DNA of 64,000 nt from Candidatus Peregrinibacteria bacterium (lineage in GTDB: Bacteria > Patescibacteriota > Gracilibacteria > UBA1369 > LOWO2-01-FULL-3), in NCBI GenBank assembly GCA_030592015.1, contig JAUUZY010000003.1:1-64000 (forward strand), written 5' to 3'. Below are positions 815 to 62,918 of this stretch, one piece after another (the first letter of the stretch is position 1; each line of letters begins with the position of its first letter). Both the position numbers and the translations under genes were made by a program. The notes beneath the pieces are model-generated. The model worked only from the letters and a program-made list of their open reading frames with translations. It was not told where the DNA came from and made no database searches.

Positions 815-1108
815 ATGCCAAGAAAGAAAACAAAAATAGATTTCGAGAGAGAGCTGGTAAAAGAGCTAAAAGTACTGACAAAGGAAGTACGAAATCTCCA
901 AAAAATGGAATTCATCAAAGTTTTCAAACACCCCTTCAAATATATGTGGTTCACTTTCCTAAAGGGACTGATGGTAGGTTTTGGTTCAGTTCTTGGAGCT
1001 ACCGTATTGGTAGCTATATTTATCTATCTCCTCGCACAAATAAGCCTAGTGCCAATCGTGGGAGATTTTGTGAACGACGTAATAACTCAGATAGGATCAG
1101 TAAAATAA
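815..1108 (+). CDS. Small membrane protein, DUF5665-like
   Basis: 97 aa, basic N-terminus, FLKGLMVGFGSVLGATVLVAIFIYLLAQI...PIVGDFV resembles DUF5665 by memory. Confidence 0.6.
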   Translation: MPRKKTKIDFERELVKELKVLTKEVRNLQKMEFIKVFKHPFKYMWFTFLKGLMVGFGSVLGATVLVAIFIYLLAQISLVPIVGDFVNDVITQIGSVK

Positions 1109-1127
1109 TTTAATTAATTTTCATACA

Positions 1128-1790
1128 ATGAAAAAATCAACAGGAACAATTTTATTTTGGGGAATATCACTTTTAGTAATAGTTGCCGCAGTTTTTGTGG
1201 TGGTTAAGTTCAGCGATGAGCCGGTAGTCGGACCTGGGGATGCAATCACAGGGGCAGCGGTAGAACTGGGAACTGACGACTGGACTAAGGGAGACGAGTC
1301 CGCATCGGTTGTATTGATAGAATATAGTGATTTTCAATGTCCGGCATGCAGCGTTTATTCTCCGATAATTAGAGATATCGTAAATGAATTTGGAGATAAG
1401 ATAGTTGTTGCATACAGACATTTTCCTTTAAAGAGCATTCACGCAAATGCGGAGGCTTCAGCTTTGGCAGCGGAGGCAGCAGGATTCCAGGGGAAATTCT
1501 GGGAAATGCATGACAAACTTTTTGACAGTCAGAAGGAATGGTCTTCACTGGGAGATCCAACAGAAACATTTGTGGGGTATGCAGAAGAAATCGGCCTTAA
1601 CCTAGATAGATTCAAGGGAGACATGGTTTCAGAGGATGCAAAGGAAGAGCTTGCAGCAGATATGGAGCTAGTGAGGTCAGCAGGCCTAAATTCAACACCT
1701 ACATTCGTTCTAAACGGAAAGAAAATCCAACCTGGAAGCTACGAGCAATTCAGGACTTTGGTGAGGGATGAGATAGAGGCGGCAAGCTAG
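1128..1790 (+). CDS. DsbA-like thiol-disulfide oxidoreductase (thioredoxin fold, membrane anchored)
   Basis: N-terminal TM; YSDFQCPACSVYSPII (CPAC active site), YRHFPL, STPTFVLNGKKI. Confidence 0.9.
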   Translation: MKKSTGTILFWGISLLVIVAAVFVVVKFSDEPVVGPGDAITGAAVELGTDDWTKGDESASVVLIEYSDFQCPACSVYSPIIRDIVNEFGDKIVVAYRHFPLKSIHANAEASALAAEAAGFQGKFWEMHDKLFDSQKEWSSLGDPTETFVGYAEEIGLNLDRFKGDMVSEDAKEELAADMELVRSAGLNSTPTFVLNGKKIQPGSYEQFRTLVRDEIEAAS

Positions 1791-3145: not shown

Positions 3146-3841
3146 CTATCTCCCCATGTAAAAGTCCTTTTTCTTCTTATCAAATTTTTCAATCGCATAG
3201 CGAAGCATGGTCCGAGGCATTGTTTTGTAGTGCTTTTTCAGAAATGATTCTTCCACTTTCTGATTTTTATTGCCTATTTCCCTGAGCATCCACCCAACAG
3301 CCTTATGGATCAAATCATGATTATCATCTACAAGGACATCAGCAATTGCCAGACCATCATCAAAGTCCTCATTCCGTATAAACGCATAACAAGCCAGCAT
3401 CGCAATTCTTCTCTCCCATAAATTTTCAGACACAGCCAATTTATACAAAATCACCCTTTCCTTATCAAGCAAATAAGCCCCAACAATTTTAGGCGCCGAA
3501 CTATCTACCAAGTCCCAATTGTTCACATTCTTAGTATTCTTTATAAAAAAATCAAAAATTTCCTTCTTTTTTATGTCCTTACTTTTCTCGTATTGATCCA
3601 CCAGAATGAAGAGAGCCGTTAATCTATATTCATGAATTTTATCATTTAAAAGTATCTGCAAAGAACCAAGGTCCAGGTCCTTATATTTCTTAGCAACTTT
3701 CCTTTGGTCCGGCACACTAATCCCCAACATTTTATCACCTTCAGCATATTGCCCCTTCCCGGTTTTAAAAAATCCAGCCAAAAATTTCGCCTTCTCTCTG
3801 TCCCCCAATTTTTGTAAATCTGATTTGAATTCTTTCAGCAT
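3146..3841 (-). CDS. DNA alkylation repair protein (AlkD-like HEAT-repeat family)
   Basis: FFKTGKGQYAEGDKMLGISVPDQRKVAKKY, NNWDLVDSSAPKIVG, HKAVGWMLREIG, MPRTMLRYAIEKF. Confidence 0.9.
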   Translation of the reverse strand: MLKEFKSDLQKLGDREKAKFLAGFFKTGKGQYAEGDKMLGISVPDQRKVAKKYKDLDLGSLQILLNDKIHEYRLTALFILVDQYEKSKDIKKKEIFDFFIKNTKNVNNWDLVDSSAPKIVGAYLLDKERVILYKLAVSENLWERRIAMLACYAFIRNEDFDDGLAIADVLVDDNHDLIHKAVGWMLREIGNKNQKVEESFLKKHYKTMPRTMLRYAIEKFDKKKKDFYMGR

Positions 3842-7520: not shown

Positions 7521-8266
7521 ATTTATTAAAAACAGCTTTAGTCAGTGCACTCGTAGTGGTTGCGCTGACTTCTTGCACTTCAGAACTTCCGGCGAAGGGG
7601 GCAATAATTCCACATCACCTTTTAGTGGAAGAGCAGATGGAGGAGTTATACACAGAAATTGCCAGCGAGGACATCGAGAAAGTGATTTTGATAAGTCCAA
7701 ATCATTTCAATTATGGCTTCAACTATATCCAGACAACGGATGAAGATTTAGAGAATGCGGAAGTTGAGCCAAAGTATTTTGAAGAAGAACACGGAATCAG
7801 CGTTCATGAGGATTTCATCTCTCGCCATTTTCCAAATGCAAAAATAGTCCCAATAATTATAAAAAATGACACTCCACAAAATCGCATAGATGATCTTTTA
7901 GAAGAACTCACCGCGCAAAATCTGGACAAAACAGTAGTGATAGCTAGCATAGACTTCACTCATTACGAATTGGAAGAAATAGCAGTGGAAAACGATGAAC
8001 GCACAATGCAATGGCTTAGAGACTGGAGTCAACACGAATCGGAAGATTCCTTCAATGAAATAAAAAATCTGGCAATCAACGTAGGCGAAAGCAGCCCGGA
8101 CGCAGTCGCAATGGATTCTCCGGAAAGTTTTTACATGCTCACCAGGATCATGGAAGCACAGAACGCAAAAGACCTAACGATCGTACAACGAACATCATCT
8201 GCTTCAATCACAGGCATAAAAGACCCCAGTCAAAACACCAGCCACCTCTTCGTAAAATTCCGCTAA
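7484..8266 (+). CDS. MEMO1-family protein (AmmeMemoRadiSam system B) with lipoprotein signal
   Basis: LVVVALTSC lipobox; [49 protein letters not shown]. Confidence 0.8.
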
Positions 8267-10026
8267 ACGTTATCCATAACAGCCCCAGTATTCGCACTGG
8301 TAACATGTTGTGCATAACGACCTAGCCAACCTCTCTTCACCTTGAGTTCATGCTCAGGTAGCTCTTCCAGGCGCCGAGCAATTTCTTCATCAGTCAAGTC
8401 TACATTGATAGTTCGCCCAATTGCATCAATCTTGATCTTGTCTCCATCCTGCAGAATAGCAAACGGCCCTCCAGCCGCAGCTTCCGGCGAAATATGGCCT
8501 ATACAAAGCCCTCTGGTTCCTCCAGAAAATCTACCATCAGTAATCAATGCGGCCTTCACACCCCGCCCTTTTATAGCGGCCGTGGGAGCCAACATCTCCT
8601 GCATTCCCGGTCCCCCCTTTGGTCCTTCATATTTCAAAACAACCACGTCGCCATCCACAACCTTCCCTTCCAAAATTCCACTGAGCGCCTCTTCCTGCGA
8701 TCCAAAAACCTTCGCCACTCCTTCAAATTGCATCATATCTTCCTCCACACCAGCAGTCTTTACCACACTACCCATCGGCGCAATATTCCCATACAAAATC
8801 GCCAACCCCCCAACCTCAGAAAACGCATCATCTCCAACTCTCACCACGTCACCATCAGCATCGGGCGACGCCTCAACATATTCCTTCAAACTCCCAACAC
8901 AAGTCGGCAAATCGATATTTAACGGTGCCTCACTGTGCTCATACACAGCCTTCAAAATCGCACCAATTCCACCCACTCGATGCACATCCTCTATATGAAC
9001 ATCAGGCCTCGAAGGAGAAACTTTGCAAATATTCGGAGTTACGTCAGATAATTCATTCACTCTCTCTAGCGGATACTTTATCCCTGCCTCCTGCGCCAAA
9101 GCTAAAGTGTGCAAAACAGTATTCGTCGATCCTCCCATCGCCAAATCCAAAATAAAAGCATTATCAATCGATTCTTTTGTCACGATATCCCGCGGCAAAA
9201 TCTTTTTATCCATCATTCGTTCAATCACATCCGCAGCCTTTTCCACAAACTTCACACGATCCGGATTTATTTCCCATTCCATATTTTCCTCATCAGTCCA
9301 AACCGCCGCCGGAATAGTTCCATTCCCCGGCATCGCCAATCCCACAGCTTCCGCCAGACAGTTCATAGAGTTCGCGGTAAACATACCCGCACAGCTTCCA
9401 CAAGTCCCACAAGCAGTACCAGCCAAATCCTCCAAATCGCCATCACTCATGCCACCCGCCGCATTTTTCCCAACCCCCTCAAAAACCGTCACCAAATCTG
9501 TGCCTCCCTTCCCAGCAAGCATCGGCCCGCCACTCAAATAAAGAGAAGGGATATTCAGCCGAACCATCGCATTTAGCATGCCCGGCACAATCTTGTCACA
9601 ATTCCCAATCCCAATCCACGCATCGCAAGGATGCGCTCCAATCATAGTTTCAATCTGATCAGTAATCAGCTCACGCGACGGCAGAGAATATTTCATCCCA
9701 AAATGCCCCATCGCAATCCCATCATCCACAGCCCCACCAATATTCGCATACCAGACATTATATCCCTTTTTCTTCAGCACGCTCACAACCCTCTTTCCCA
9801 ATTTATCCAAATGAGCATGCCCAGGAATCTGAGTCGTAAAAGAATTCACAACCGTCACAAAAGGCTTGCTCCTATCAGAAATTTCGTCAATTACTCCAGC
9901 CGCCTTCATCAAAGAAGCCGCCGGCAACATATGCATCCCTTCAGCCACAATCCGACTACCCCTCTTCTGCACATTAGCTATACCTGGATTTATCGCTTCG
10001 TTATTTGTCATAGGGGCATCATACAA
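8263..10026 (-). CDS. ilvD: Dihydroxy-acid dehydratase
   Basis: [73 protein letters not shown]. Start may be internal Met at 10011. Confidence 0.97.
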
Positions 10027-10062: not shown

Positions 10063-11892
10063 TTACTTTTTGACTGGAGTCAGGATATCCTGGCCTTCCA
10101 GCCCTTCAAGCAAGCCTGCATATGTTTTACTATCCACAGCCTGCCCCTCAAGAGAATCAGCTTTCTTCAGGTATTGCTCATAGGAAAAACCTGCATGTGC
10201 AGAGCGCAGAGCAAGTTCATATCCCTCGCCGTCAATCAAACGACCAAGCTTTCCAATAACTTCATTATTATCGTCCTCTTCTTCAACAGGAAAAAAGAGA
10301 TAGTCTTTATTTCCATGACTCAATTTCCCCTCAACCACCTTTCCCTCATCCGATTCTTCATCGTCCCCTTTTCCATCAAAAAGCTCAATCGGAAGTCCAT
10401 CCTTGTCATCGGCTCTAAAGATAGTCAATTGTGCAATTTTCCTGTCCCCTTTATATGATTCCAAAATCGCCTCCAATATTTCTGGATTCACAGTTTGGCC
10501 AGCAATCGTACTAAGGATAGTAACATCGCCGCCTTCCATTTCAAGTGTCCTTTTAAAGGCTTTTTTACAATTATTTTTTTGGGCAAGTATCGTTTGAATT
10601 TTATGTGCAATAGGGGGCTGGTTTTTCGCTTTCTCCACGAGCCCTGCCATTTTATCCACTTTTGCAGGAGGAAAGTTACAGATATTTTTAGCCGTCAAGC
10701 CTTCAAGTATAGCATTAGATTCAGGGAAATCTACTGGGGCTTCGTCCTTTTCTTCTTCATCATCGCTATCCGCCCCCGCAGTCGGAGTAGTCTTATCAAC
10801 TTCGACCTCAACCTCAGCAGGTTTCTTATCTGGATCATCCACAGCTGCCATCGCAACAGCAATAGGATCTTTCTTCGCGCCTTCAATTTGCAGTCCACGA
10901 TAAACGTATCCCGCCGCAGATGCACCAAAGAAAAGAATAAGTACAGATGCCACCTTGAGATATGTGGCTTTCTGTAAATCTCGAAGATTGACTTCAGAAG
11001 CTTTGGCACGTTCTATTCTTGTATCGGCATTTTTCATTTTTACTTCCGCCTCCTTCATCTTCTCCCAAAGACCGGTATTGTCAGTTTTTGCGGCTTCAAA
11101 TGCACGTTGCATTTGAGTAAAATCTTGCTTTTCATGGGCAAGACTTCGCATTTTTTCCATGATTTCATCCCTCAATACTTTAAGGTTTTCAATTTCTTCG
11201 TTAGAGCCCTTACTATCCCTCAAAAGATCAGCAACCTTTATCCGAGCGTTGCTAACAACTTCTTTATCAGCAAGCTCGTACTCCTTTCTTTTCAGCGCAG
11301 GCACAAGTTGCTTAATAAGTTCAACAAAAGATCCTAATTCATCAAGCTCAACACTAGATCCTTCAGGAAGAGTCAAAAACATTTCAAGAAAATCATTACA
11401 CTTTTTAAACAATAGCTCTAGAGGGTCAGATATCTCATCTGCTTTATCAAACATTTTATCATCTACGGTAAGAGGGCCTGGCAAAGAACGTACTCTCGCA
11501 GGGATATCTTTGGAGGCAGTAGTTTGCGGAACCTTTGGGGTTTTAGCTCCTGCCGACAAAGCTTTTCCTTTGGGCTTTGGGACCTTTTTTGTATCCGCAA
11601 AACCTATGGAAGAGTCAGCCTCGATAGGAACGCCATCCACAGCAGCTTGTGCCAAAGCTGCAATATTAACTGGCATCTCCCATTCTCTTTCAATAGTTGC
11701 TGGTCCTGGTTCTCTAGTTTGACCTGGCTTCAGCTCCGGCTCATCACGATTAATCCATCCACCAGCCCTGGTGACAGGAGTTGCCGGAGGAACAGGAGGC
11801 CTCACCATGTCTTCAGTAGGATCAGCAACATCATTATCAAAATCATCAAAATCACTTTGCGCTTTTCCTTCAAGTCTTTTTCTAGTAGCCAT
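10063..11892 (-). CDS. Uncharacterised coiled-coil protein with single TM and C-terminal conserved-looking domain
   Basis: 609 aa; low-complexity N-term, coiled coil, TM VASVLILFFGASAAGYVYRGL, C-terminal domain similar to that of the upstream gene (11930-14251). Confidence 0.75.
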   Translation of the reverse strand: MATRKRLEGKAQSDFDDFDNDVADPTEDMVRPPVPPATPVTRAGGWINRDEPELKPGQTREPGPATIEREWEMPVNIAALAQAAVDGVPIEADSSIGFADTKKVPKPKGKALSAGAKTPKVPQTTASKDIPARVRSLPGPLTVDDKMFDKADEISDPLELLFKKCNDFLEMFLTLPEGSSVELDELGSFVELIKQLVPALKRKEYELADKEVVSNARIKVADLLRDSKGSNEEIENLKVLRDEIMEKMRSLAHEKQDFTQMQRAFEAAKTDNTGLWEKMKEAEVKMKNADTRIERAKASEVNLRDLQKATYLKVASVLILFFGASAAGYVYRGLQIEGAKKDPIAVAMAAVDDPDKKPAEVEVEVDKTTPTAGADSDDEEEKDEAPVDFPESNAILEGLTAKNICNFPPAKVDKMAGLVEKAKNQPPIAHKIQTILAQKNNCKKAFKRTLEMEGGDVTILSTIAGQTVNPEILEAILESYKGDRKIAQLTIFRADDKDGLPIELFDGKGDDEESDEGKVVEGKLSHGNKDYLFFPVEEEDDNNEVIGKLGRLIDGEGYELALRSAHAGFSYEQYLKKADSLEGQAVDSKTYAGLLEGLEGQDILTPVKK

Positions 11893-11929: not shown

Positions 11930-14251
11930 CTATTCTACTTTTGCTTCAACTGTTTCTACTTCTTCTTCAAACACTTCTTCTATCAAAAGATCCGGAGGAC
12001 CTTCTAAAATCCTAGAAAGCTCTTTATATGCAGACTCCGGAATAGTGCCAATCACCTCATCTTTAGATTCACTGCCCTTTACAATCGCAAGACATTTCTT
12101 GTAAGAGATTCCTCCCTCTAAAGCAATACGAGCAGCTCGCTCAATCGCCTTGGAACTGTCTAAACGTTGAGCCATAACACCTACAGTAGTCTGAAAATCT
12201 ATACTCAAATCTCCTGTAAGTCCTACCGTTCCATAAGTTGTAGCATCTTTTACCCCATTTAAATTCATTTGCATCAGGGGATCACCATCTTTCTCTTTTT
12301 TTACTTTCATTCGTTTAAAGTTGTCAGCACCATTCTCCATGTGGAAAATAAGTGTTATTCGCTTTATTTCCTTTTCAGATAAGCTATCAATAATTCCTGC
12401 CAAACCAGCAATTAATTTATCATCAATAGAAAAGTTTTTAGGGAAAGTATGTCCTACATAGCTTCCTTTCAGACCACGAACCTCTTTAAAATCCATAACA
12501 TTGCATAGATTTCCAAGCCTCCCAAGGGCTTGCCCCACCCCCTTATCAGCAAGGATTCCTTGAAGTTTTTCAAAGGCTTCCGGAGTAACCAATGGACAGG
12601 TTTTTTCTACCTCCATGCCATCAACGCTCCCCCTAAATTCTGAAAACTTAAAACCGGTGATAGGCTCAAGGTCAATTTTAGACTCGGGCTCAACCGGTGG
12701 CGTAGATGGAGATTCCTTATCAGCCACAGCAACAATTGCCTTATCCTTGTTCTTTAGTTGTTTAAATTTTGCAATTTCCCCCTCCAGAGCTTCAACTTCA
12801 GCCTCCAATGCTCCAATTTCCTCCGCTTTCTGCTTAAGCCAATAGCTGACCCCGGCAAATATAGCTCCAGACCCAAGTGTTAAAGCTGCTACAGCTGCAA
12901 CAGAAATCCAGACCAAGCGCCTATTTCGAGCAAGCTCATTATTTTCCCCAGTAATCCATTCTGAGAGTCTTCCTCTTTCAAGAAAAAGACTATGCTTTCT
13001 ATCTTTGAGCTCTTCCTGGCCTTCCTCAATTATTGTCTCTGCCTTTGTCTTAGCGGCTGCGGCCTCTGCAAACTGCTTTCGAATTTCCTCAAGTAGCTTA
13101 GATTCCTGAGTACCAATCCTCTCCTCTCTACCCTCTACCACATCTCTTCTAATCCCCACTCTTTCTTCGGCATTCTTAACAGTTTTTTCTCTATTTAAAA
13201 TGGCTTTTTGTCTCTTCAGAAGCTGATCCAGCAAAGCTTTAAGCTTGTCAGGTGCAGATTCAAGTTTTGCGCGCTCAGCAGCAAGTGCATCAATTTTTCT
13301 TTTCAAGTCGTCCATTATATGCCTTTTAGCTTCAATCACCGCCTTTAATTTATCAACTTCGGCCTTTTCTATCTCAGCGATTTCAGCCTCAAGCTTCTCT
13401 TTTAGCCTTGCAAACTCAGCAGCAGATGCTTTTTTAAGCCTTTTTTCTAATTCAAAAACTTTTTCACGCTCTACTTCAACTCCTGCTTCCATTTCTCTAA
13501 TTCCCTGCTGTTTTTCTAGAAGTTCCTGTTCAAATTGTTCAAGCATTCTTTTCAATTCATCTACGTCCTTCTGCTCCTGCTCCTTCTGCTTCTCAAATGC
13601 TTCGATGGTTTTATTTAGTTCAGCCTCAGCGTTATTAATATCTCTCCATGCTTTGTTTTTATCCTCCTCCTCTGCTTTTTCGCGCTCTCGCTCAGCACGA
13701 CCTTCTCTAATACCTCGGCTAAGGCTGCCAGCAGGTCTAGCAGTCGCAGCAGGACGCCTTGCTACGGGTTTTCTACTTTCGGTTAAAAGATGAGTGTCCG
13801 ATGCCAATAGAGGTGGAGCGACCATGCTTGGAGATCCATGCACGGTTCTGTTTGCAGCAGCAGGAACCTTAGCAGAGCCAGCCTTTAAGGCCGCAATTTT
13901 TGTCTTTTGCATTGCAGCAGCTAATTGGCCCTGGACAATTAGACTTGGACTACCATGTAGGGTCTGATTTGCCGCCTCAGGAATTTTAGTGGGAGCGGGG
14001 CTAGAATCATGTCGTTTTTCAGAAAGCGCAGGAATCCCTGTTTGAGTCGGGACATCAGAACCAGATGCAGAAAATGGGCTAATAGCACCGGGGAGTTCTT
14101 CCCAATCCCCGGAATCATCAGAAGACGCGGGCAGGTCAACAGTATCAAGCATAGCAGCTTCCCCTTCCGGAGGACCGTCCGCTTCTACTTTCTTTTTCCC
14201 AACAAGCTCTCTAAGCTTTTCAATCTGACTTGGCATATGTAAAAAATACAA
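11930..14251 (-). CDS. Uncharacterised long coiled-coil protein with single TM; paralogous C-terminal domain to 10063-11892
   Basis: 773 aa; Ala/Glu/Lys coiled coil, TM LVWISVAAVAALTLGSGAIFAGVSYWL, extracytoplasmic C-terminal domain; N-terminal duplicated KIPEAANQTLHGSPSLI / KVPAAANRTVHGSPSMV. Confidence 0.75.
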   Translation of the reverse strand: MYFLHMPSQIEKLRELVGKKKVEADGPPEGEAAMLDTVDLPASSDDSGDWEELPGAISPFSASGSDVPTQTGIPALSEKRHDSSPAPTKIPEAANQTLHGSPSLIVQGQLAAAMQKTKIAALKAGSAKVPAAANRTVHGSPSMVAPPLLASDTHLLTESRKPVARRPAATARPAGSLSRGIREGRAEREREKAEEEDKNKAWRDINNAEAELNKTIEAFEKQKEQEQKDVDELKRMLEQFEQELLEKQQGIREMEAGVEVEREKVFELEKRLKKASAAEFARLKEKLEAEIAEIEKAEVDKLKAVIEAKRHIMDDLKRKIDALAAERAKLESAPDKLKALLDQLLKRQKAILNREKTVKNAEERVGIRRDVVEGREERIGTQESKLLEEIRKQFAEAAAAKTKAETIIEEGQEELKDRKHSLFLERGRLSEWITGENNELARNRRLVWISVAAVAALTLGSGAIFAGVSYWLKQKAEEIGALEAEVEALEGEIAKFKQLKNKDKAIVAVADKESPSTPPVEPESKIDLEPITGFKFSEFRGSVDGMEVEKTCPLVTPEAFEKLQGILADKGVGQALGRLGNLCNVMDFKEVRGLKGSYVGHTFPKNFSIDDKLIAGLAGIIDSLSEKEIKRITLIFHMENGADNFKRMKVKKEKDGDPLMQMNLNGVKDATTYGTVGLTGDLSIDFQTTVGVMAQRLDSSKAIERAARIALEGGISYKKCLAIVKGSESKDEVIGTIPESAYKELSRILEGPPDLLIEEVFEEEVETVEAKVE

Positions 14252-56970: not shown

Positions 56971-57999
56971 ATGGATTTACGCGAACAAAAGAACCAAGAA
57001 GACCTCATAGCAGATCACAGTCTTGCACTGGAGGTCATTAGGGGTGCATGCTGTGGAACAGATCAAGAGGTTTTTGAGGCACTAGAAAGAATTCAAACAG
57101 ATACAGTACGCAACAAGGTAGTATCTACCTACGTGACAGATTACGCTAAAAGAGATAAGGAATTAAACATTGATAGCAAAACCCTAGCGGATATTATATC
57201 CCATTTTGAATCGCATGAAATCGAAAAAGCATATAGAGCGCTGGGCATCTTGGAAGAAAGATTTGCTGGAAATATGCATCTGCATGAAGGAATTAAATGG
57301 AGTAAAGTTAAGGCGGCAATATTAGAAAATCCTGATGCAATGCGGAGTCTTGTAAAAATGGAAGACGCTGGACATGAGCCGGATGTATATCACGATGACG
57401 ATGAACACTATTACTTTGGAACCTGTTCTGAGGAAGTGCCGGAGAGTAGTATGGGCTGTGTATATGACAATGCGGCCTTGCTTGATCTAATTGAAAACAA
57501 TCTATCTGATCGAAATCCTAGACCTGTAGATTATGAAAAAGACCATGTGGAAGTTCGTGACAAAGCCTATGAATCAGCTTATTACGATGAACATGAAAAA
57601 GCCTATGAAGAAGAATATGTACAAGAATATGTACAAGAATATGTACAAGACGGCAGTGAAGAAGAAGATGAAGGAGGGTATATAGACGATTATTGTAGTG
57701 ATGAAGACTTTGATGAAGGTTGTGAAGCTACTGGTGCAGCAGAGCTAATGGCACGGTCAATGAAGGCAGGGCTTATGTCGCCAGAGGATTATAGTATTTT
57801 GCAAAGCAAAGGTGTTTTTGATCAAAATACTGTGAGCTGGCTGTTCACAAGTTCAGACATTAGAGCAAATGGCCTCGCTTATACAGGTTCTAGAATCCAA
57901 AATGAAATGTATGAGAATTATATTTGTAATGATTCCACTCCTTCAGGTCATGACTTTTACATGGGTTTCCGTGGCACCCTAAAAGTCAAAAAATCCTAA
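56971..57999 (+). CDS. Hypothetical acidic protein
   Basis: 342 aa; candidate promoter TTGACA-N17-TATAAA upstream; EYVQ x3 repeat at 57613-57648. Confidence 0.6.
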   Translation: MDLREQKNQEDLIADHSLALEVIRGACCGTDQEVFEALERIQTDTVRNKVVSTYVTDYAKRDKELNIDSKTLADIISHFESHEIEKAYRALGILEERFAGNMHLHEGIKWSKVKAAILENPDAMRSLVKMEDAGHEPDVYHDDDEHYYFGTCSEEVPESSMGCVYDNAALLDLIENNLSDRNPRPVDYEKDHVEVRDKAYESAYYDEHEKAYEEEYVQEYVQEYVQDGSEEEDEGGYIDDYCSDEDFDEGCEATGAAELMARSMKAGLMSPEDYSILQSKGVFDQNTVSWLFTSSDIRANGLAYTGSRIQNEMYENYICNDSTPSGHDFYMGFRGTLKVKKS

Positions 58000-58003
58000 A
58001 TTC

Positions 58004-58032
58004 TTTACATTCCACCTCCCCTTCCATATAAT
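58004..58032 (+). promoter_or_regulatory. Promoter of thrC-like/ilvEBN operon
   Basis: TTTACA (58004-58009), 17-nt spacer, TATAAT (58027-58032). Confidence 0.8.
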
Positions 58033-58038
58033 CAACCC

Positions 58039-58089
58039 ATGCACAAGTTCGCCACAATAATTTCAATTGTAGTCATTATTATCTTCTAA
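58039..58089 (+). CDS. Candidate attenuator leader peptide MHKFATIISIVVIIIF*
   Basis: 16 codons, 6 Ile and 2 Val, ends in GTA GTC ATT ATT ATC TTC TAA immediately before hairpins; missed by the ORF track because of size. Confidence 0.75.
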   Translation: MHKFATIISIVVIIIF

Positions 58090-58093
58090 TTCT

Positions 58094-58122
58094 GGAGAGG
58101 AACTTGTATGTAAAATCCTCTC
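58094..58122 (+). promoter_or_regulatory. Candidate antiterminator hairpin
   Basis: GAGAGGA (58095-58101) pairs with TCCTCTC (58116-58122), overlapping the terminator 5' arm. Confidence 0.7.
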
Positions 58123-58144
58123 TGGCAACAGGAGGTTTTTTTTT
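58117..58144 (+). terminator. Candidate intrinsic terminator (attenuator)
   Basis: CCTC-T-CTG GCAA CAGGAGG stem with one bulged T and GCAA tetraloop followed by nine T. Confidence 0.82.
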
Positions 58145-58166: not shown

Positions 58167-60014
58167 ATGCTTACAACAAACGGAAAATTCTACATTCTCA
58201 AGTGTACAAAATGTAATACGGAATTCGATGAAAAGAAAACTTGTACTACATGCCTAAAATGTGGGCATCCGTTAGACGTGATTTATGATTACAAATACAT
58301 CAAGCAGCGCCTCAATCTATATGCACTGAAGAATTCGCCAATATCAGCATTGAAATATCTTCTCCTATACCCGATCATAAATTTGGAGAAAATAATCAGC
58401 CTAAACGAGGGTGGAACACCACTTCACCATTGCGGAAATTTATCAGAAGAATACAAAATCAAAAATCTATACGTAAAAAACGAGGGAGCAAACCCAACCG
58501 GGGTATTCAAAGATAGAGGAACATTGGTAGAAATAACAAAAGCACTGGAAATGGGAGCAAAAGCAGTCTGTGTAGCCTCCACCGGAAACATGGCAGCATC
58601 CGTTTCAGCATATTGTTCAATCGCAAAAATCCCATGCTATGTACTCGTACCTGAAGGAACACCTATCGGAAAACTCGCACAGACACTTTCATACGGAGCA
58701 AGAATAATCCAAGTACGTGGAACATATTCCGAATGCGCAAAGCTAGCAGTAGAAGTATCAAAAAAACACGGGTTCTACCTAGCGGGAGACTATGTATTCC
58801 GACTGGAAGGACAAAAATCTCAAGCCTACGAAATAGCCGAGCAATTGGGATGGAAAGCCCCTGACTACCTCCTCTGTCCAATAGGGTGCGGAACGAATCT
58901 CGCCGCAATATGGAAAGGATTCGTAGAATTGAAAAAACTCGAACTAATAGAAAAATTACCAAAACTAATAGGGGTACAACCTGAAGGATGTAACGTAATC
59001 ACAAAAGCTTTCAAAGAAAAGAAACACACTTTCAAACCAATAGAAAAACCAAACACAATCTGTAGCGCAGTAGCCGCAGGAAATCCATTAGACGGATCAA
59101 AAGTACTCAAAGCCCTCTACGAATCAAAGGGAACAGTTTGCGAACTGACAGATGAAGAAGTTCTCGAGGCGGAACAAACTCTGGCAAAACAAGAAGCAAT
59201 ATTTGTAGAACCATCAGGAGCACTACCAATAGCGGCAGTTGCCAAAATGTCACAAAAAGGATTCTTCAAAAAAGACGACATAGTGGTTTGCATCGCAACA
59301 GGTAATGGATTGAAAGACCCCAAGTCAGCGGTAAAAATCCTCCCTGACCCACCAACAATAGATCCGCAAATGTCCGAAGTAGACAATTACCTGAAATATA
59401 AACTCTACCAAATCCAGGCGGAAGGAATGAAAAATAAGACCAAAGTTTTATGGGAAAGAATTCCGACACTCGAAAAATTAAAGAAAATCATTCACAACGA
59501 ATTTGGAATCAAAATCAACAAAGTGATCCTAAAAAAAGCTCTCGAGAGCATCAAAGAATTCGAAAACAAAGGAAAAACTCTCACAAAACAGGATCTCCAA
59601 AACATCATCGAAGAACAAATCGATGAATACAACATAAAAGAAAAATACCTGGAAATAATCGACTTCGAAACAAAAACATCGAAGTACAAAGAAGCCGAAG
59701 CCAGTCTGAAAATAAAGTACGGAGACAAAATTCTCCTCGCACAGGCAAAAGGTGTAGGTACGGTAGATGCGATAATCAAAGCCCTAAAAAAGAGCATCAA
59801 GCCGCACGACAAACTTCACATCAAGCTGACAGACTACAACGTGGAAATATTTACAGGTGGAGTAGACGCATCAGTGAAAGTAACAATGAAGGCGAGAGAC
59901 AAGAAAGGAAACAAAATTATTTCCCACGCTACATCACCGGATGTGATCGTGGCCTCAGTGAACGCATTTGAGAAATGCTATAACTTCCTTTACCATAAGA
60001 ATCACTCTAACTAA
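58167..60014 (+). CDS. Threonine-synthase-like PLP enzyme with N-terminal Zn ribbon and C-terminal LeuA-type allosteric domain
   Basis: CTKCNTEF...CLKCGHPL; NEGGTPLHH, NEGANPTGVFKDRGT, ASTGNMAASVSAYC; C-term AEASLKIKYGDKILLAQAKGVGTVDAIIKALKKSI...LTDYNVEIFTGGVDASVKVTMKARDKKGNKIISHATSPDVIVASVNAFEKCYNFL. ORF start 58104 lies within the attenuator, so ATG 58167 preferred. Confidence 0.85.
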   Translation: MLTTNGKFYILKCTKCNTEFDEKKTCTTCLKCGHPLDVIYDYKYIKQRLNLYALKNSPISALKYLLLYPIINLEKIISLNEGGTPLHHCGNLSEEYKIKNLYVKNEGANPTGVFKDRGTLVEITKALEMGAKAVCVASTGNMAASVSAYCSIAKIPCYVLVPEGTPIGKLAQTLSYGARIIQVRGTYSECAKLAVEVSKKHGFYLAGDYVFRLEGQKSQAYEIAEQLGWKAPDYLLCPIGCGTNLAAIWKGFVELKKLELIEKLPKLIGVQPEGCNVITKAFKEKKHTFKPIEKPNTICSAVAAGNPLDGSKVLKALYESKGTVCELTDEEVLEAEQTLAKQEAIFVEPSGALPIAAVAKMSQKGFFKKDDIVVCIATGNGLKDPKSAVKILPDPPTIDPQMSEVDNYLKYKLYQIQAEGMKNKTKVLWERIPTLEKLKKIIHNEFGIKINKVILKKALESIKEFENKGKTLTKQDLQNIIEEQIDEYNIKEKYLEIIDFETKTSKYKEAEASLKIKYGDKILLAQAKGVGTVDAIIKALKKSIKPHDKLHIKLTDYNVEIFTGGVDASVKVTMKARDKKGNKIISHATSPDVIVASVNAFEKCYNFLYHKNHSN

Positions 60015-60020
60015 ACAAAA

Positions 60021-60944
60021 ATGGCAAAAACATTTCCCTACGCATACATTAGAAAAAAGACATGCAAAACTGAAAAAGCAGTAATACCGATTCAATCAAA
60101 AGTTGTTCAATACGGCCTGGGATTCTTCTCGGGGATACGTGGGTACTGGAATGGTGATAACAAAAATATATACCTATTCAGAATGGAGGATCATTTCAAT
60201 CGAATGCAGGAATCCGCAAAAATAATGCACATGAGATTCCCTCTCAGCTATCCAAAATTCAAAAAAATCGTAATCGACCTCATCAAAAAGAACAAAGCAA
60301 AGGGAGACATATACATCAGACCAACCGTCTATGCAGCCTCCACAGAATTAACTCCACGACTCAATAATCCGGACGACGATCTTGCAATATACATGATCTC
60401 TCTAAAAGATTATTTCAAATCAAACACAGGGGTGAAGGTTTGTATTTCCAGTTGGAGACGAGTGGAAGACGATGCAATTTCCATGAAAGCAAAAGTGACA
60501 GGCGCATACGCAAACTCCGCACTCGCAAAAACTGAAGCCCTGCTAAATGGTTATGATGAGCCAATATTCCTAAATCGCGACGGTTCAGTCTGCGAAGCAA
60601 GTGGTGCAAACATTTTCGGAATAAAAGATGGACAGGTATATACACCACCTCTATCCGCAAACAATTTAAACGGAATCACACGACGCAGCATCATCGAATT
60701 ATTCGAAAAAGAATTGAATATGAAAGTCCGCGAAGAAAATTTTGATCGCTCAACTCTATACACATTCGACGAATTGTTTTTCACAGGAACGGCAGCAAAA
60801 GTCGCATGGATCGCATCTGTCGACCAGAGGAAAATCGGAAAAGGAACAATGGGGAAATACACAAAAAAGGTAAAAAGAATTTTCGACGAGATCACAGAGA
60901 TGAAGCATGACAAATATTCACAATGGCTAACCCCAGTATATTGA
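60021..60944 (+). CDS. ilvE: Branched-chain amino acid aminotransferase (class IV)
   Basis: VQYGLGFFSGIRGYW, AKVTGAYANSALAKTEALLNGYDEPIFLNRDGSVCEASGANIFGIKDG, ITRRSIIELF, DELFFTGTAAKVAWIASVDQRKIG. Confidence 0.93.
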   Translation: MAKTFPYAYIRKKTCKTEKAVIPIQSKVVQYGLGFFSGIRGYWNGDNKNIYLFRMEDHFNRMQESAKIMHMRFPLSYPKFKKIVIDLIKKNKAKGDIYIRPTVYAASTELTPRLNNPDDDLAIYMISLKDYFKSNTGVKVCISSWRRVEDDAISMKAKVTGAYANSALAKTEALLNGYDEPIFLNRDGSVCEASGANIFGIKDGQVYTPPLSANNLNGITRRSIIELFEKELNMKVREENFDRSTLYTFDELFFTGTAAKVAWIASVDQRKIGKGTMGKYTKKVKRIFDEITEMKHDKYSQWLTPVY

Positions 60945-62680
60945 ACGAAGAAAATCTAAAACTCGGAGCAGAAATATTTTGTGACTCACTGGCAAGTGAG
61001 GGCGTAGACATAATATTCGGAATCCCTGGAGGAGTGCTCTTGCCGCTATACGACAAAATAAACACACACGGAAAGAAGATCCGCCATATACTTCCCAGGC
61101 ACGAACAGGGAGGAGGATTCGCAGCAGACGGCTATGCCCGAGTTACAGGGAATGTAGGAATCTCGATCGGAACATCAGGTCCGGGAGCTACAAACCTTCT
61201 CACAGCGATGGCAAATTCTATGATGGATTCAGTACCAACCATCTACGTTACAGGACAGGTCATGGAAGACATGATGGGAACAGATGCTTTTCAGGAAACA
61301 GATGTAGTGGGAATGAGCATGGCAATTGTAAAACACAGCTATTTCGTAACTCACGCAAAGGACATAGCGAGAGTAATGAAGGAGGCTTTCCACATAGCGA
61401 ACACAGGTCGGCCTGGACCAGTACATATAGATTTTTCAAAAGACGCATGGCTGACCAAGGCCACAGGAGAAATTCCGGAAGAAATAAATCTACCGGGCTA
61501 CACAGCAATTCCTGAAACTTCAGCAGATTCAGAAATTCAAAAACTGGAAGGCCTACTGGAAAAAGATGGAGTGAAACCACTAATAATCGCAGGACACGGT
61601 ATAGAAATTTCTAGAGCACAAAAGGAATTATTAGAGTTTGCAGAAAAACACAACATCCCAGTGGCAAACACGCTACTGGGGCTGGGAAACTTCCCTCAGG
61701 GACACCCGCTATGGGTGGGAATGATAGGAATGCATGGTGACGCAGTCGCAAACGTTACAGCGGACAGTGCAAACCTAATAATAGGTGCTGGAATGCGTTT
61801 CGATGACAGAATCACAGGTGAGCTAAACGACTTCATAGATGGAGTTACATTCGTTCACATAGAAATAGACAACTCAGAAATAAACAAAAACGTTCCAATA
61901 GAACTCCCTCTACTTGGGGATGCAAAGGACGTTCTCTCCCGAGCAAACAACTTACTTTCAGATCACAACTACACGGACTGGCTGGAGCAAATAAAAAAAT
62001 GGAAAGAAGAATACGGATTCCTGGATTTCAAATTCAATCCAATAAACGACGAGAAATTTTTGAGTCAGCCACGAATTATAAAAATGATTTCAGACATAAC
62101 AGAGGGGGAGGCGATAGTTGCAGGTGACGTAGGAAGAAATCAAATGTGGCTTGGAAGATTCTATAGATTCAAACATGCGAACTCTCATCTGTCATCAGGA
62201 GGCCTTGGCTCTATGGGCTATGGCTTGCCGGCAGCAATGGGCGCAAAGCTTGGAGCACCGGATCGTGAAGTATGGACTACAACAGGAGATGGAGGCTTCA
62301 TGATGAACGTTCAGGAATTGGGAACTCTGGCTGAACACAACATTCCTGTAAAAATTGCGATCATGGAAGACTCAAGTCTCGGAATGGTTCGACAATGGCA
62401 GAATTTACTTTTCAAAGGAAATCTCTCACACTCAGAGTTCAAAAATCCGGACTTCGTTGCACTCGCAAATTCATTCGGAATACCTGCATGGAGAGCGACT
62501 ACTTATGAAGAAGCGGAACACGCAATTCATGAAGCTCGTAAAGTAGACGGACCTACTCTGATCACATTCATGGTAGACCCGGATGAGCACATTTTTCCAA
62601 TGGTCCCACCAAACACACCGCTCAGGGATCAGGCACTTAGAAACGAAGACTTAACAGGAAAAGATCATGGAACAATATAA
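60923..62680 (+). CDS. ilvB: Acetolactate synthase, large (catalytic) subunit
   Basis: GIPGGVLLPLYDKI, RHEQGGGFAADGYARVTG, TSGPGATNLLTAMANSMMDSVPTIYVTGQV, GDGGFMMNVQELGTLAEHNIPVKIAIM. Confidence 0.96.
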   Translation: MANPSILNEENLKLGAEIFCDSLASEGVDIIFGIPGGVLLPLYDKINTHGKKIRHILPRHEQGGGFAADGYARVTGNVGISIGTSGPGATNLLTAMANSMMDSVPTIYVTGQVMEDMMGTDAFQETDVVGMSMAIVKHSYFVTHAKDIARVMKEAFHIANTGRPGPVHIDFSKDAWLTKATGEIPEEINLPGYTAIPETSADSEIQKLEGLLEKDGVKPLIIAGHGIEISRAQKELLEFAEKHNIPVANTLLGLGNFPQGHPLWVGMIGMHGDAVANVTADSANLIIGAGMRFDDRITGELNDFIDGVTFVHIEIDNSEINKNVPIELPLLGDAKDVLSRANNLLSDHNYTDWLEQIKKWKEEYGFLDFKFNPINDEKFLSQPRIIKMISDITEGEAIVAGDVGRNQMWLGRFYRFKHANSHLSSGGLGSMGYGLPAAMGAKLGAPDREVWTTTGDGGFMMNVQELGTLAEHNIPVKIAIMEDSSLGMVRQWQNLLFKGNLSHSEFKNPDFVALANSFGIPAWRATTYEEAEHAIHEARKVDGPTLITFMVDPDEHIFPMVPPNTPLRDQALRNEDLTGKDHGTI

Positions 62681-62918
62681 TTACGAACTCAAGACAACAG
62701 TAGAAAACCAACCGGGTGTGCTAGCACGCATGACAATCATGCTGCGCAAATTCAACATAAATATTAAGTCCATGGAGATCGTAGAACCGGAAGGCGACAA
62801 AAGCATCTACGAAATCCACATGGTAATAGAAAGTCCCAAAGAAGACGTCTCCGTCGTACTGAAAAAACTGGAACGACTTGTTCCAGTCATCTTAGTTGAA
62901 TACAAAAGAATCGATTAA
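62667..62918 (+). CDS. ilvN: Acetolactate synthase small subunit, short ACT-only form
   Basis: YELKTTVENQPGVLARMTIMLRKFNINIKSMEIVEPEGDKSIYEIHMVIE; 83 aa; overlaps ilvB. Confidence 0.88.
   Translation: MEQYNYELKTTVENQPGVLARMTIMLRKFNINIKSMEIVEPEGDKSIYEIHMVIESPKEDVSVVLKKLERLVPVILVEYKRID

Follow-up and report, generated by a model that had tools for sequence, protein, structure and literature searches.

A candidate ribosome-mediated transcription attenuator with an Ile/Val leader peptide ahead of the thrC-ilvEBN operon of a Candidatus Peregrinibacteria genome

The segment at positions 58004–58144 of the window, a 64,000-nucleotide stretch of DNA from a Candidatus Peregrinibacteria genome (contig JAUUZY010000003.1), lies ahead of a thrC-ilvE-ilvB-ilvN operon and is, with a probability we put at about 90%, a ribosome-mediated transcription attenuator, a candidate function that would make the operon dependent on charged Ile-tRNA. 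Val-tRNA is probably sensed as well. This reading is carried by the sequence layout of the leader, its conservation, the complementarity of its strands and its thermodynamics in the presence of a ribosome footprint. A short ORF rich in Ile and Val lies close 5′ of a terminator and before an operon making those amino acids; antiterminator and terminator are mutually exclusive, sharing the terminator 5′ arm; and the layout is conserved in relatives while the sequence changes. An Ile/Val attenuator upstream of a thrC-like/ilvEBN operon had been proposed in an earlier, sequence-only reading of this DNA; all of its parts were found again when the sequence was re-read, and the layout recurs in related genomes.

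The leader opens with a sigma-70-type promoter, TTTACA-N17-TATAAT (58004–58032, forward strand, like all parts of the leader and operon), in which TTTACA at 58004–58009 and TATAAT at 58027–58032 can be read directly, as proposed, with 11/12 matches. The −10 element ends 6 nt, not 7 as first counted, before the ATG of a 16-codon ORF (58039–58089) encoding MHKFATIISIVVIIIF, which contains six Ile and two Val residues and has Ile-rich counterparts in relatives. Its control codons are the Ile/Val codons 10–15. The ORF ends GTA GTC ATT ATT ATC TTC TAA, with one Phe codon between the Ile run and the stop codon that this run had been said to abut. About 2–3 nt past the stop begins segment 2, the 5′ strand of the antiterminator (CUGGAGAGGA / CTGGAGAGGA, 58092–58101), which pairs with segment 3, its 3′ strand (TCCTCTCTGG, 58116–58125), to form a 2:3 helix of 10 contiguous pairs, longer than originally described. 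Segment 3 overlaps the 5′ arm of an intrinsic terminator (58117–58144), made of the hairpin CCTCTCTGGCAACAGGAGG at 58117–58135 and T9 at 58136–58144; reading and folding the sequence bore out both the overlap and the exclusive pairing. The post-stop antiterminator folds with about −13.4 kcal/mol, compared with −9.0 kcal/mol for the terminator alone, and the 58004–58144 region has a more stable fold than its dinucleotide shuffles (z −2.68). An ATG-TAA after GGAGAGGA (58108–58113) was considered as a start-stop element and rejected, as it is not kept in relatives.

The first structural gene (58167–60014) encodes a threonine synthase (PALP) whose C terminus carries a fused LeuA allosteric domain (PF00291, E 2.3e-75; PF08502, E 1.6e-24; NF006050 over cut-off). 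It is followed by ilvE, a branched-chain aminotransferase (60021–60944; TIGR01122 and NF005146 over cut-off), ilvB, the acetolactate synthase large subunit (60923–62680; TIGR00118 over cut-off), and an ilvN-like ACT-domain small subunit of acetolactate synthase (62667–62918; PF22629 over cut-off). Fusion of threonine synthase to the LeuA allosteric/dimerisation domain (PF08502) is widespread in the class, and the domain may let a branched-chain amino acid feed back directly on the enzyme. A contig labelled Deltaproteobacteria (L016, MGRI01000100.1), possibly misassigned, has a thrC that shares 62% identity with the Peregrinibacteria-type fusion. The ilvD gene lies on the reverse strand of the same contig as the operon (8263–10026), about 48 kb away, and two ORFs upstream of it (10063–11892 and 11930–14251) have no Pfam match; in the related genomes G263, G264, G268 and G316, ilvD is found on the contig and strand of thrC, between or beside thrC and ilvB. 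The source assembly comprises 1.2 Mb in 75 contigs, in which no 16S rRNA was found.

The sequence-only reading had staked its case on relatives keeping the mini-ORF and hairpins, and the orthologous thrC leaders do keep the promoter, the Ile-rich ORF, the antiterminator strand and the terminator. At least eight related genomes carry an orthologous thrC with the same leader layout in a differing sequence. Within the family, four further genera show it (MKKLALSLLIIVIIIL in G263 and G264, MKRLILIISVLIIIL in G268, MNKSFSIISFVIIDL in G269 and MKYFAQAIIAIIIIL in G278); outside it, the layout is found in G316, from another family of the same order, whose ORF MHMQRVIVIGLIIIPLNQER extends through segment 2, and in two other families of the class, represented by G339 (MASTRLVVGLLIIPL) and by G150 and G152, whose leaders from a scan of fetched loci, MKNTIIIIDL and MNKNIIIISP respectively, have 10 residues each. 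The thrC relatives have a promoter resembling TTTACA-N17-TATAAT ahead of their leaders. A covariance model built from the first seven thrC leaders and searched against 359 genomes of the class recovered its training leaders at E 7e-9 or better and gave a weak match (E 0.06) just 5′ of thrC in G316; the other weak matches (E 0.001–0.1) were re-scanned for attenuator parts, and none but G316 qualified. No leader is visible before thrC in G262 (L045), where thrC directly follows another gene, a situation that may reflect loss of the attenuator or an assembly join. Other families of the class show in-frame TGA throughout, in line with a source of the Peregrinibacteria/Gracilibacteria type.

Leaders are also found before other branched-chain operons, at ilvB in G242 (MEKNLHLIVSLVLI) and G150 (MNASFVILVNVVGIPLN) and at leuA in G320 (MNKLLLSPLLLLRLDRA), G321 (MKNLRLSSLLLLRLDRAV), G323 (MFSKIIPLLLILLEEIQVA) and G144 (MITPKFFLELLLLGF), the last without a good promoter; around hisG and ilvD in genomes of the order, no convincing leader was seen. 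The enriched residue tracks the operon, being Ile at thrC, Val (G150) or a mixture of Leu, Val and Ile (G242) at ilvB, and Leu at leuA, and G150 carries two leaders, one with Ile at thrC and one rich in Val at ilvB. This correspondence bears on the idea that the mini-ORF, with its own terminator, specifies a small hydrophobic peptide for the membrane, for instance a toxin-like one, whose Ile residues belong to a membrane helix. The leader peptide does have a charged start (MHK, MKK or MKR) and a hydrophobic character, but its enriched residue follows the operon, the G150 and G152 leaders are just 10 residues long, and the post-stop region is tuned to codon positions, all of which makes this the least credible of the alternatives.

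To gauge chance occurrence, we scanned 1.19 Mb of the source genome for strong terminators (T≥6, dG≤−7). Among the 369 found, 88 have a suitably placed ATG mini-ORF, 29 of these with an antiterminator score of at least 16, and the terminator at 58117–58144 is the sole one that combines an antiterminator score ≥16 and a promoter of ≥10/12 with an ATG mini-ORF whose final 11 residues include at least six Ile/Val/Leu. A looser scan of the genome returned matches that were mostly chance and inside genes, and stricter thresholds retained just 58004–58144. The simplest competing explanation is that the hairpin merely terminates the upstream DUF4256-like gene, the promoter and mini-ORF having arisen by chance and the thrC promoter lying elsewhere. 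The hairpin does sit 3′ of the stop of that gene, which ends at 57999, and 2.7 promoter-like sites are expected by chance per 800-base stretch at the scan threshold. However, relatives retain the promoter, the Ile-rich ORF and the antiterminator strand while their sequence 5′ of the leader differs; the pairing of an 11/12 promoter with a mini-ORF of at least six Ile/Val/Leu is unique among the 369 terminators; and a promoter scan found no consensus promoter between the terminator and thrC. We consider a plain terminator very improbable.

We modelled the attenuator by deleting all RNA as far as 12 nt beyond the A-site codon's first base, a footprint borrowed from E. coli, and calculating how probable the terminator pairs are at equilibrium in what remains. 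In this model, the terminator probability of the source thrC leader is 0.00–0.05 with the ribosome at codons 9–14 (0.02 at Ile14), 0.20 at Ile15, 0.95 at Phe16 and 0.99 at the stop. The simulated footprint thus agrees with the proposal that a ribosome at TAA would mask segment 2 and a stall on Ile would free it. The size of the switch, stop minus control codon, is 0.97 in the source leader, which had itself been chosen beforehand for exactly this layout, and all 300 dinucleotide shuffles of the sequence from stop to terminator fell short of this value. Across 16 members, the switch averages 0.71 versus 0.20 in shuffles (sd 0.06, maximum 0.41), the fold statistics of G150, G152, G242 and the leuA set being biased upward because these were selected partly for antiterminator strength. 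The thrC relatives G263/G264, G268, G269, G278 and G339 were picked by orthology alone; G263/G264 and G268 switch, as does G278 more weakly and not beyond its own shuffles. No switch at the chosen codon was seen in the equilibrium model in G269, G339 or the thrC leader of G150, though the parts are present.

A third helix, beyond the two described earlier, appears in the minimum free energy fold of the free leader. It joins the start of the leader (ACAAGUUC, 58043–58050) to GAACUUGU (58100–58107), at the edge of and within the antiterminator loop, through 8 contiguous pairs. Like complementarities of 8–10 bases, in other sequences, are found in G268 (AAACGUCUC), G339 (CGUCGGUCUC), G316 (CAUGCAAC) and G320 (AAAUUACUU). 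Covariation was tested by swapping partners instead of by columns, because automatic alignment of the DNA put segment 2 in the wrong place. Across 15 members, the protector arms match their own partners over 6.27 contiguous bases versus 4.84 for swapped partners (7 of 100,000 permutations; by duplex energy, 164 of 100,000 partner-swap permutations); in several members the helix is weak or absent. Such a protector helix would act as an anti-antiterminator, keeping the operon off when the leader is untranslated.

From these elements we infer a start site, translation of the leader, tRNA sensing and a direction of regulation in vivo that would combine as follows. RNA polymerase would start at, or a few nt from, the leader ATG, and a ribosome would load on the leaderless or nearly leaderless RNA and translate the peptide. 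When Ile and Val are plentiful, the ribosome at UAA would cover segment 2 (58092–58101), the terminator arms would pair and transcription would stop at T9. When they are scarce, a stall on codons 10–15 would leave segment 2 free, allowing the 2:3 helix to form, the terminator to be blocked and transcription to read through into thrC. With no ribosome on the leader, codons 2–4 would pair with 58100–58107, which would disfavour the 2:3 helix and conceal the start, so that the default state would be off.

The hairpins might instead form a non-translated switch that responds to a protein, a ligand or tRNA and not to ribosome position. The free source leader RNA already favours the terminated fold (terminator probability 0.97), and in G147, G352 and G350 the place of the leader seems to be taken by candidate T-boxes, so that tRNA may be sensed by a different route nearby. 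Against a non-translated switch, the thrC members conserve both a reading frame and its Ile codons immediately ahead of segment 2, and no Rfam family matches the source leader; we regard such a switch as very unlikely. In the Rfam search, no leader family (Phe_leader, ilvB-OMG and others) exceeded its gathering score, the best being Phe_leader with 17.3 bits versus 55, and T-box RF00230 gave no match in the source thrC leader. The candidate T-box before thrC in G147 (L048, 2565–2732, reverse strand) contains AGGTGGTACC and matches RF00230 at E 0.0015, below the gathering score. Those in G352 (L049, about 3340–3760, reverse strand) and G350 (L051, about 1060–1500, forward strand, where the copy reads AGGTGGTATC) were recognised solely by the AGGTGGTACC motif, no Rfam match being found for either.

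Returning to the translated leader, the ORF at 58039–58089 is probably read from a leaderless mRNA, as the sequence-only reading had suggested; its spacing of 6 nt matches a small, separate class of promoters in the source genome. Strong promoters before long ORFs of the source genome lie mostly 19–32 nt from the ATG, with none at 9–14 nt and a small class, five genes, at 6–8 nt. The distance from −10 to ATG is 6–10 nt in the source leader, G268, G269, G339, G316 (taking the first in-frame ATG), G150 thrC (with a weaker −10 match), G152, G320 and G321, and 20–24 nt in G263/G264, G278, G242 and G150 ilvB. No excess of Shine-Dalgarno motifs was detected upstream of 794 long ORFs of the source genome (41 versus 44 in shuffled upstream sequence), which suggests Shine-Dalgarno-independent initiation with some leaderless genes and makes a leader without such a motif ordinary in this genome. 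The added remark that a leaderless peptide is unusual for attenuators does not stand, since such peptides are documented in S. meliloti trpL (PMC7298713), S. lividans (PMC8079986) and C. glutamicum ilvBNC (PMC11857589). Leaderlessness would hence not be an exceptional feature.

The proteobacterial ilvL, leuL and thrL attenuators work through control codons, an antiterminator and a terminator. The thrC leader shares this logic, but differs in being short, in lacking a Shine-Dalgarno sequence, in its predicted start at or near the 5′ end and in matching no Rfam leader. By analogy, the closest known system appears to be the leaderless three-hairpin ilvBNC attenuator of Corynebacterium, the ilvB-II motif, in which a leaderless leader rich in branched-chain amino acids, usually of 15–17 residues, is combined with an anti-antiterminator that also hides the start, an antiterminator and a U-run terminator (PMC10272879, PMC11857589). 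Each of these elements has a counterpart, observed or predicted, in the thrC leader, which likewise precedes a branched-chain operon, and the protector helix fits the three-hairpin model of C. glutamicum (PMC11857589). The thrC leader differs from that system in its control codons, mostly Ile, and in preceding a first gene whose threonine synthase product carries a LeuA allosteric domain; no Rfam match links the two, and they belong to different phyla. In Sinorhizobium meliloti trpL, the RNA begins at the ATG of a 14-residue leader peptide (PMC7298713), as predicted here, but that leader senses tryptophan and its host is alphaproteobacterial. T-box leaders (RF00230) share tRNA-dependent control of transcription, with the sub-threshold match in G147 occupying the same place before thrC, but have no translated ORF.

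In Patescibacteria (CPR), whose genomes are small and whose ribosomes are reduced, little has to our knowledge been established about gene regulation. An open-access literature search turned up no previous description of attenuation in this group, and the recurrence of the same switch in relatives indicates that textbook attenuation appears to operate in a Patescibacteria-type lineage. What is new is the lineage, the order containing Candidatus Peregrinibacteria GWA2_33_10, and the spread over three types of branched-chain amino acid operon. We see an even chance that class members still making these amino acids use lineage-wide, Shine-Dalgarno-independent attenuation of most of the operons concerned, with leaderless leaders the usual form and T-box RNAs swapped in at thrC in some families. 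The conserved parts of the attenuator make a concrete reporter test possible. If the reading is true, at least one class of Patescibacteria would link translation and transcription closely enough for amino-acid supply to be sensed, would keep regulated synthesis of isoleucine and valine, and would initiate its leaders without a Shine-Dalgarno sequence.
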